A DNA stretch of 64,000 nt from a virus: the IMG/VR virus record IMGVR_UViG_3300030098_004191, positions 1 to 64,000 of that record; one strand, 5' to 3'. This document shows positions 30,231 through 36,163 of this stretch, one piece after another (within the stretch, counting starts at the first letter, position 1; each line of letters opens with the position of its first letter). The notes beneath the pieces are model-generated. The model was not told the DNA's origin. It saw only the letters and a program-made list of their open reading frames with translations, and searched no databases. Position numbers and translations under genes: made by a program.

Positions 30231-30259
30231 ATTATACATCAATCTCTTCGTAACGTCAA
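30231..30259 (-). promoter_or_regulatory. Sigma-70 promoter TTGACG-17-TATAAT
   Basis: Minus-strand -35 TTGACG (30254-30259) and perfect -10 TATAAT (30231-30236) with a 17-base spacer, ending 22 bases before the ATG at 30208. It would be read by host RNA polymerase without the late factors. Confidence 0.75.
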
Positions 30260-30426
30260 TCCTTTTCTGTGATTATTACTTCCTTTCCGTCTACCTTAAA
30301 GTGAACCTCTGTATCTTCATACCAATTCATATCATTGATCACCCATTCAGGTATTTTAACATAAAACTCCCCTGTTATATTATCGACTTCTAGGGGCGAA
30401 AAATTTTCTGGGGAATTTTTTTGCAT
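30256..30426 (-). CDS. Small AbrB-like protein (56 aa)
   Basis: From the ATG at 30426 the protein is 56 aa: ITGEFYVKIPEWVINDMNWY, then EVHFKVDGKEVIITE. The alternation ITGxxxVKIPEW...VxFxVDGxEVIIT resembles swapped-hairpin AbrB-type DNA-binding subunits. The frame extends to another ATG at 30537, but the extra 37 residues are Lys/Phe/Ile-rich from an AT tract and have no ribosome site, so I prefer the short form. A role as a small transcription regulator is inference. No promoter is obvious. Confidence 0.6.
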   Translation of the reverse strand: MQKNSPENFSPLEVDNITGEFYVKIPEWVINDMNWYEDTEVHFKVDGKEVIITEKD

Positions 30427-33917: not shown

Positions 33918-34166
33918 TCAACTGGTTGAATTGTTTACATTTTCTGAAACATATTGTGGTAAGGTGTTATTACAAATGACCTTGTAATTCCTGGCAAGTC
34001 TTCTATTAATACCATCAATCATCTGATCTTTAGTAACAACTTCTTTCTTCATAGTTTCGCCACTAAATGTTAATACCTTGAGAAACTTGTCTGGATTAAT
34101 AACATCATCCAACCAAGATTTAGTGGGATAAAAGTCAACAACCATGCTTCCAGATTGTAATCTCAT
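33918..34166 (-). CDS. Hypothetical protein (82 aa)
   Basis: 82 aa: MRLQSGSMVVDFYPTKSWLD, then KFLKVLTFSGETMKKEVVTK and MIDGINRRLARNYKVICNNT. Looks like a small alpha/beta protein with a basic helix; not recognised. It is the first gene downstream of the large non-coding region, whose 3' element copy at 34233-34247 lies 67 bases before its ATG. Confidence 0.62.
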   Translation of the reverse strand: MRLQSGSMVVDFYPTKSWLDDVINPDKFLKVLTFSGETMKKEVVTKDQMIDGINRRLARNYKVICNNTLPQYVSENVNNSTS

Positions 34167-34566
34167 AAGGGTGAAATCCGTGGGACAAATGTAATATAAA
34201 CGATTTCAACCACGAATAGGAAAAATGTGTGCCACTTTGTCAACTGGATTCCAGCCTAAAAAAAATCCAGCTGACCGTGGGACGGTAGCGGAATTGTCAC
34301 AACATAGGGATTACGATGCCCCTGTGCCGATCTACGAATTGTCATATCTTGTTTATTACTATCTCGAAATTATGTTATAATATTATATTAATTACAAACA
34401 CCATAAGTTATTAACACATAGTGTGCTATATTGCATGTCTAGTTGTTATACACAATGCTCGTGCAATTAGGCATAATGTATGTAAGCTAGTGCCTGATAG
34501 TCTGTACTATCTCGTGCATAATCATCATCTGATGTGTATGTATCTTGTTGCGTGTGCATGTGATAC

Positions 34567-34791
34567 ATCTCGTCGAGATAATCATGTGATGACATCTCGT
34601 AATCCCACACGAATTCGCAATCGTAATCTTGCATGTTTCTAGTCGAGATTGTTATTTGATTATATGATTATTATACATGAATCTCGTTGAAATGTCAAGT
34701 GCAAATCTAGTCGAGATTGTATAATGCTGATAGTATATATGTATTCTAGTCGAGATTGTTACGAAACGTGAACATAAGATCTAGTCGAAAT
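34567..34791. repeat. Cluster of six near-palindromic 13-mers
   Basis: Copies at 34567-34579 (ATCTCGTCGAGAT, a perfect 6+1+6 palindrome), 34637-34649 (TTCTAGTCGAGAT), 34681-34693 (ATCTCGTTGAAAT), 34705-34717 (ATCTAGTCGAGAT), 34744-34756 (TTCTAGTCGAGAT) and 34779-34791 (ATCTAGTCGAAAT). Start-to-start distances are 70, 44, 24, 39 and 35 bases. Half sites ATCTCG occur at about 34361, 34509 and 34594. The symmetry suggests binding by a dimeric protein. Confidence 0.72.
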
Positions 34792-34978
34792 TTTATGTGA
34801 CTCTGTGTAAAATTTTGCGTCCTGTGTGTTGACAAATCGCCTTCCTCATGGTACGCTCGGTAAGGTCGCATAAGATATGAAGTTTAACAGCGTATAAGAA
34901 GCGTATTTAGACAGTAAATAAGACCCTATAACCCTATAAAGATACTATAGGATACTATCCTTATAAAACACGAAGATA

Positions 34979-34986
34979 TATTTATA
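34979..34986 (-). promoter_or_regulatory. Late octamer TATAAATA in non-coding region
   Basis: Perfect minus-strand late promoter octamer. A transcript from it would run through the whole 13-mer cluster before reaching the 82-aa gene, about 810 bases away. It may instead make an untranslated RNA, or be chance in AT-rich DNA. Confidence 0.4.
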
Positions 34987-35043
34987 AAGGTATTTAAAAC
35001 GTTATTTTTAACATAAATGGTATAAATTGATACAGAATACTTA

Positions 35044-35820
35044 TTACATTACCAACTTACGTCTTTCTATGTCATTCTCATTTAACAGTGCTGATTCACC
35101 CCTCCAAATCTCTATAATATGGGCAGGATTATCACTCTCATTTATACCTTTGTGCCATGTATTTACAGGGATGAATATACCTTTATGTTCCTTTAGTTTG
35201 TGCTTAATTATATTTGGCTGATTAATACCATTATCCATTATTACATAACATTCTCCTTTTACCACATTCCATGTTTCAGTCCTGTGTTCATGTTTTTGCA
35301 TTGATAGAGAACTATGAGGATTAATCACTAATTCTTTTACCTTATAACCTTCTCCTTCATACAGTACTCTATAGTATCCCCATGTTCTTATTGTCTTTGG
35401 ATTACTATACTCATTCAATAGAATACTACTACTATTCTTCTTATCATTTCCTCCTATTCCCCACTTGAATACTACTCTTGCATCACACCAGTACTTATCA
35501 TGTTCTGGTACATTATCCTTTTCTCTATCTCCACCATTACAGAATATAATAGGACTGTGTTGTATTAACTGTTCTATTGCATCATTACTACTGTCATCAT
35601 CATCATTAAAGGAAATTACTTCATCGACACATGACAATGATAGAAGGATTTCTTTCCTTTCATCATAGTCCATGAAGTATCTTCCCTTCTTACGGATTAA
35701 CCATTCATCGGAATTTAATCCTACTACTAAGTGTGTACCATATGCTCTGGCATGTTTAAACAGTGCAATGTGACCACTGTGTATTGGATCAAATCCACCT
35801 GTGACTAATACTTTACTCAT
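35044..35820 (-). CDS. Cytidylyltransferase-cupin fusion protein
   Basis: 258 aa from ATG 35820 (an in-frame GTG lies two codons upstream). Residues 3-130 form a nucleotidyltransferase of the HxGH class: VLVTGGFDPIHSGHIALFKH, then VVGLNSDEWLIRKKG, like the adenylyltransferase half of HldE/RfaE and glycerol-3-phosphate cytidylyltransferase. Residues 150-250 form a cupin like the C-terminus of mannose-6-phosphate isomerase type II: NPHSSLSMQKHEHRTETWNV, then VKGECYVIMDNG and GIFIPVNTWHKG, with the H, H, E and H metal ligands in place. This suggests sugar-nucleotide or surface-sugar chemistry. It overlaps the upstream gene by eight bases and is last in a long operon. Confidence 0.8.
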   Translation of the reverse strand: MSKVLVTGGFDPIHSGHIALFKHARAYGTHLVVGLNSDEWLIRKKGRYFMDYDERKEILLSLSCVDEVISFNDDDDSSNDAIEQLIQHSPIIFCNGGDREKDNVPEHDKYWCDARVVFKWGIGGNDKKNSSSILLNEYSNPKTIRTWGYYRVLYEGEGYKVKELVINPHSSLSMQKHEHRTETWNVVKGECYVIMDNGINQPNIIKHKLKEHKGIFIPVNTWHKGINESDNPAHIIEIWRGESALLNENDIERRKLVM

Positions 35821-36163
35821 TTCCACTTATATCATCATATTGTGACCAGTGTTGTACCTCTCTGGTACTTCTTCTTTTTACAAATTTTAATTCGTGCCAA
35901 TACGTGTCATAGCACAACAGTAGAGTATGAATGTATTTGTGCGGATCATTTTTAGTGTGCTCACAATATGGTTTCGGTCTTATACCAGTCTCTATGGTAA
36001 TGTACCTTGCAACAGGATTCCACCCTTGTTTGATTCTGAGATCATTATCTACTGGGTCTCCTTTGAAATACACCCATCCTTCATCAGTACTTCCATTCTC
36101 ATGTTTCCAGATGACATAATCATCTACCTCTGGCTCATAGGGGGTACTTTCCATCTTCATCAT
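35813..36163 (-). CDS. Hypothetical protein with WVYFKGDP motif
   Basis: About 116 aa from ATG 36163. The frame is open further, but only to a TTG. Key segments: VDDYVIWKHENGSTDEGWVY, FKGDPVDNDLRIKQGWNPVA, then LLCYDTYWHELKFVKRRSTR. I associate the DYV-W-GWVYFKGDPVD pattern with a widespread phage protein of unknown function. It overlaps the 63-aa gene upstream by about 29 bases and the cytidylyltransferase gene downstream by eight. Alternative ATGs at 36160 and 36154 cannot be excluded. Confidence 0.65.
   Translation of the reverse strand: MMKMESTPYEPEVDDYVIWKHENGSTDEGWVYFKGDPVDNDLRIKQGWNPVARYITIETGIRPKPYCEHTKNDPHKYIHTLLLCYDTYWHELKFVKRRSTREVQHWSQYDDISGNE

Follow-up and report, generated by a model that had tools for sequence, protein, structure and literature searches.

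A cluster of near-palindromic 13-mers around a predicted early promoter of T4-like cyanophages: putative operators next to a leader that is origin-like in some relatives

What a tight cluster of near-palindromic 13-mers might do in a viral genome is the question raised by record IMGVR_UViG_3300030098_004191, an 85.9-kb viral contig of which we analysed the first 64,000 nucleotides (the window). Genes for baseplate, tail-fibre, helicase and methyltransferase functions find matches in phage families and cyanophages, and members of the Kyanoviridae, namely P-SSM2, P-SSM5 and Marine virus AG-345-L05, match the DNA around the array. The window comes from a T4-like cyanophage of that family, close to P-SSM2. 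The control of early and middle transcription in T4-like cyanophages has been described as unclear, with motA and asiA lacking and no middle promoter found in P-SSM2 (PMC2984593).

All six members of the ATCTMGTCGAGAT family that the original prediction had placed between 34567 and 34791 are there on the plus strand (Table 1), with no mismatch to ATCTMGTCGAGAT at 34567 and 34705, one at 34637, 34744 and 34779, and two at 34681, and with uneven spacings of 70, 44, 24, 39 and 35. When up to two mismatches are allowed on both strands, the window holds 11 matches to the 13-mer, whereas 100 dinucleotide shuffles of the window averaged 1.84 and never exceeded 8. The motif is not equally common elsewhere, an outcome that had been named beforehand as counting against it: exact and one-mismatch copies in the whole record are confined to the array, and when near-palindromic 13-mers in clusters were sought de novo, nothing but the array came up, either in this record or in the 252-kb P-SSM2 genome. 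Some details of the first description need correcting. The first copy is not a perfect palindrome, which a site of odd length cannot be, as the central base breaks the symmetry; the single direction of all copies holds within the window but not in relatives, where directions are mixed; and the region, described as gene-free, contains a conserved 55-aa ORF that starts inside the array and has as its neighbour an 82-aa ORF (33918-34166) matching phrog_500. Searches of the region against Rfam and for tRNAs gave no match. No description of the motif was found in the open literature searched, which yielded five chance occurrences only; an occurrence in the T4-like phage DLP6, rejected as chance, sits within a terminator.

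Table 1. Coordinates of the 13-mer array and neighbouring elements in the window
Feature	Position	Strand	Remark
13-mer site 1, ATCTCGTCGAGAT	34567..34579	+	within small ORF, encoding LDE there
13-mer site 2, TTCTAGTCGAGAT	34637..34649	+	between inferred P_L start point and ORF start codon
13-mer site 3, ATCTCGTTGAAAT, degenerate	34681..34693	+	in P_L -35/-10 spacer
13-mer site 4, ATCTAGTCGAGAT	34705..34717	+	upstream of P_L
13-mer site 5, TTCTAGTCGAGAT	34744..34756	+	between P_L and P_R
13-mer site 6, ATCTAGTCGAAAT	34779..34791	+	between P_L and P_R
P_L, predicted consensus sigma70 promoter TTGACA-N17-TATAAT, perfect hexamers	34670..34698	-	
Conserved acidic 55-aa ORF (MQDYDCEF...ALAYIHYA), first P_L operon gene	34467..34634	-	
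P_R, predicted sigma70-like promoter TTGACA-N17-TACGCT, kept in relatives	34829..34857	+	
P_R leader, AT-rich; origin-like in some relatives	34858..35040	+	
T4-late-type TATAAATA element, within conserved block 34969-35011	34971..34986	-	late promoter role inferred
MazE/AbrB-fold small protein (phrog_661), candidate regulator	30256..30426	-	P_L strand, 4.3 kb downstream

The array recurs widely. Viral contigs were scanned for pairs of 13-mers 8-38 bases apart, which gave at least 120 stretches. Nearly all of these carry clustered sites, as many as 10; the few that have none (for example L019, L032 and L068) are probably chance matches. In P-SSM2 and S-T4 the 13-mers occur only at the equivalent locus, and in S-SRM01 within about 5.4 kb. 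The region is conserved in relatives, and its absence or scrambling there was the other outcome that would have spoken against the original prediction. The 55-aa ORF has a counterpart annotated in P-SSM2 as PSSM2_098, and an acidic ORF of about 42-68 aa, identified by its C-terminal motif, lies downstream of P_L in 70 of 95 arrays; its substitutions outside the operator-like stretches fall 517, 437 and 793 at codon positions 1, 2 and 3, the pattern of a coding gene. The P_R leader stretch 34820-35008 is about 74% identical to P-SSM2 and P-SSM5. In the S-T4 reference record (L132 2747-2935 and L135 24916-25104) about 9.5 kb are present at either end, which puts the array region in the record twice and gives gp001-gp024 and gp203-gp226 a double annotation.

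The position of the sites is informative. We surveyed promoters in those arrays that have five or more sites, 95 in all, each oriented by the strand of most of its sites; near-identical contigs are included in the counts. A P_L-type promoter scoring at least 9.5 out of 12 lies within 62 of them, compared to 11% of control stretches, and in 50 of the 95 a 13-mer overlaps the P_L spacer, its start nearly always coinciding with the end of the -35. Where P_L is perfect (12/12), the spacer holds a 13-mer in 24 of 26 arrays, the window and P-SSM2 included; some relatives have a weaker P_L or lack the spacer site. On the other side of the array the divergent P_R is conserved. Beyond 400 bp from the array, extra sites with at most one mismatch are found 41 times in the 329 kb downstream of P_L and not once in the 278 kb upstream, and several secondary clusters lie in gaps between genes in some relatives, often without a strong promoter. 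The spacings between sites show a roughly helical periodicity, in arrays that are related and hence not independent.

Repeated near-palindromic sites overlapping a promoter are the mark of a phage early-promoter operator array, and the earlier suggestion of operators gains support from this arrangement of a site within a consensus promoter, flanking divergent promoters and further sites in the downstream operon only. From such sequence evidence we consider it reasonably probable that the array consists of operators for a phage-encoded, probably dimeric regulator of two divergent promoters that host RNA polymerase would use for the first early genes. P_L would fire upon phage entry, and the regulator, once accumulated, would sit on the site between -35 and -10 and on the flanking sites and shut P_L down, perhaps together with P_R. 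The extra sites between genes of the P_L operon in some relatives could then be secondary operators or roadblocks. On this reading the array would let the virus itself switch its earliest infection genes, and it adjoins a stretch that is origin-like in some relatives. The same operator-like array stands on the predicted first early promoter of P-SSM2 and S-T4, isolates with known hosts, which makes the question of early control directly testable.

Clustered repeats next to an AT-rich leader could also mark a replication origin, in which the 13-mers would be iterons bound by an initiator and the P_R transcript would open or prime the AT-rich region, a mechanism that has been proposed for origins at early promoters such as T4 oriE. 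Some 140-180 nt past the -35 of P_R the AT fraction climbs to 0.79, P_R opposes the direction of the neighbouring genes, and tandem repeats of at least three copies occur in 9 of 61 P_R leaders compared to 3 of 288 controls. The DnaA box of cyanobacterial oriC is TTTTCCACA (PMC4674748), and counting it together with TTATCCACA we found clusters in 9 P_R leaders, some of them near-duplicates, an enrichment of about 19-fold. Such clusters adjoin the array in S-SKS1, where the P_R leader holds the only DnaA-box cluster of the genome, and in several contigs; in DSL-LC03 a single intergenic gap (80113-80717) that looks like the equivalent of the array region contains variant sites and a P_R-like promoter, both flanked by boxes, seven in all. 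Conversely, when triple DnaA boxes were the sole search criterion, 13 of the 119 viral loci obtained had a 13-mer within 1 kb, with under one estimated by chance. However, the array locus has no DnaA-box cluster in the window, P-SSM2, S-T4 or S-SRM01, no turn in GC skew was seen at the array in four related genomes, and the extra 13-mers are one-sided, lying along the P_L operon. It is mainly this one-sidedness, a better fit to gene regulation, that leads us to prefer regulation over a pure origin, which we consider rather unlikely. The origin part of the original prediction keeps some support, as a possible origin in the P_R leader of some relatives; because the window's own locus has no DnaA boxes, an origin there is argued from those relatives. 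The box clusters also narrow down where an origin of cyanophages might be sought. We offer tentatively, as a conceivable reading, that the locus is early switch and origin in one: a phage regulator on the 13-mers would silence the first early operon and, coupled to this, make an origin in the P_R leader fire, with some lineages recruiting host DnaA, which T4 is not known to do.

The remaining explanations carry little weight. Both promoters are of sigma70 type and host RNA polymerase should read them, so a host transcription factor, turned to the phage's use or directed against the phage, might bind the 13-mer, but 101 host-family genomes contain 17 exact matches compared to about 21 for the reversed control, with none in Synechococcus WH7803, the host of S-T4, and we consider this improbable. 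A role in RNA, as hairpins of the P_L transcript, seems a little less probable still: a single 13-mer is able to fold into a short stem, and untranslated leaders include some of the sites, yet half of the window's sites lie upstream of P_L and so outside its transcript. The inner pair is also commonly an A-G combination, which breaks the stem and has no compensating changes, and this argues for recognition as DNA. Clustered near-palindromes found once per genome could suggest a partition-like, packaging or recombination site, the first of which had been proposed. Against this, T4-type phages are lytic and package by the headful, the sites run one-sidedly along an operon and no partition gene was noticed nearby, so that the proposal finds no support and we regard such a site as very improbable. 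Least probable of all is that a repetitive gene coding for DLDE gave rise to the repeats as a by-product; sites within the ORF do encode (D)LDE, but most lie outside it, in the promoter and upstream.

Returning to the operators, the regulator itself is likely to be a phage protein, since the hosts show no enrichment of the 13-mer. One candidate is the small phrog_661 protein. Wherever its gene could be located, it lies with few exceptions 3-9 kb downstream of P_L and on the strand of P_L. The AF2 model of the protein (mean pLDDT 89.8) has a fold of the swapped-hairpin type, with MazE, AbrB and VapB as the top Foldseek matches (1ub4, TMq 0.74, though with E above 0.01), and the homologue in DSL-LC03 is annotated AbrB/MazE/SpoVT. 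Autoregulated operators of the CopG, MazE and AbrB type are short, pseudo-symmetric and overlap a promoter. The cyanophage array is similar in having pseudo-symmetric sites over a promoter and an operon that encodes a small protein with a predicted MazE/AbrB fold, but no toxin partner was seen and the candidate is acidic. Being acidic, and present too in phages without the array, phrog_661 may not be the binder. A PDB sequence search with a MazE/AbrB-like profile gave no match, comparison of gene content between three array and three non-array genomes gave many spurious frames and no clear binder, and a survey of protein clusters in the P_L operon found mostly small acidic proteins and no obvious DNA-binding family.

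Among phages, the array invites comparison with two described systems. In mycobacteriophage L5 and cluster A, 13-bp repressor sites in promoters and short intergenic gaps act as operators and stoperators (PMC9283540). The cyanophage sites are likewise 13 bp long and found at a predicted promoter; by inspection, some relatives, but not the window, also have sites in short gaps of the early operon. Unlike L5, the array is clustered at one locus of a T4-like phage with no known lysogeny, a homologous repressor was not found, and the sites are near-palindromic and in both directions in relatives, whereas those of L5 type are asymmetric and fixed in direction relative to transcription. In T4 oriE, clustered 12-13-nt repeats of undefined function accompany an early promoter (PMC3016281), and the cyanophage locus similarly joins a predicted early promoter to a short-repeat cluster in a T4-type phage. 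However, the repeats of T4 are evenly spaced and direct, and those of the cyanophage are unevenly spaced near-palindromes, one of them in the promoter spacer. Because one defining feature of each system is missing, we assign the array to neither; by analogy, it may work like L5 stoperators and adjoin something like T4 oriE.

Several further observations concern the neighbourhood of P_R. In S-SKS1 (L130 3820-3980) P_R is directly followed by about five 22-nt tandem repeats and then three DnaA boxes 21 nt apart. A second motif, TATTGAGAATC, and its complement are frequent in many P_R leaders (e.g. L006 3220-3420) and occur near some gene ends. Evidence for a structured RNA from P_R is weak, with a mean fold z of -1.1 over 30 leaders and a few outliers. 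In the window, a single chain on the minus strand at 35044-35826 combines cytidylyltransferase-like and mannose-6-phosphate isomerase C-terminal domains. GIY-YIG endonuclease-like genes lie just downstream of P_R in 11 of 68 loci (L062, L043, L064, L017, L033, L073, L088 and others), and Pfam confirms both of those tested. A different picture emerges for S-CAM7, which has no 13-mers and carries another repeat array, of the TACGCAGCATATA type (L138 2590-2790), ahead of a homologue of the second early gene.
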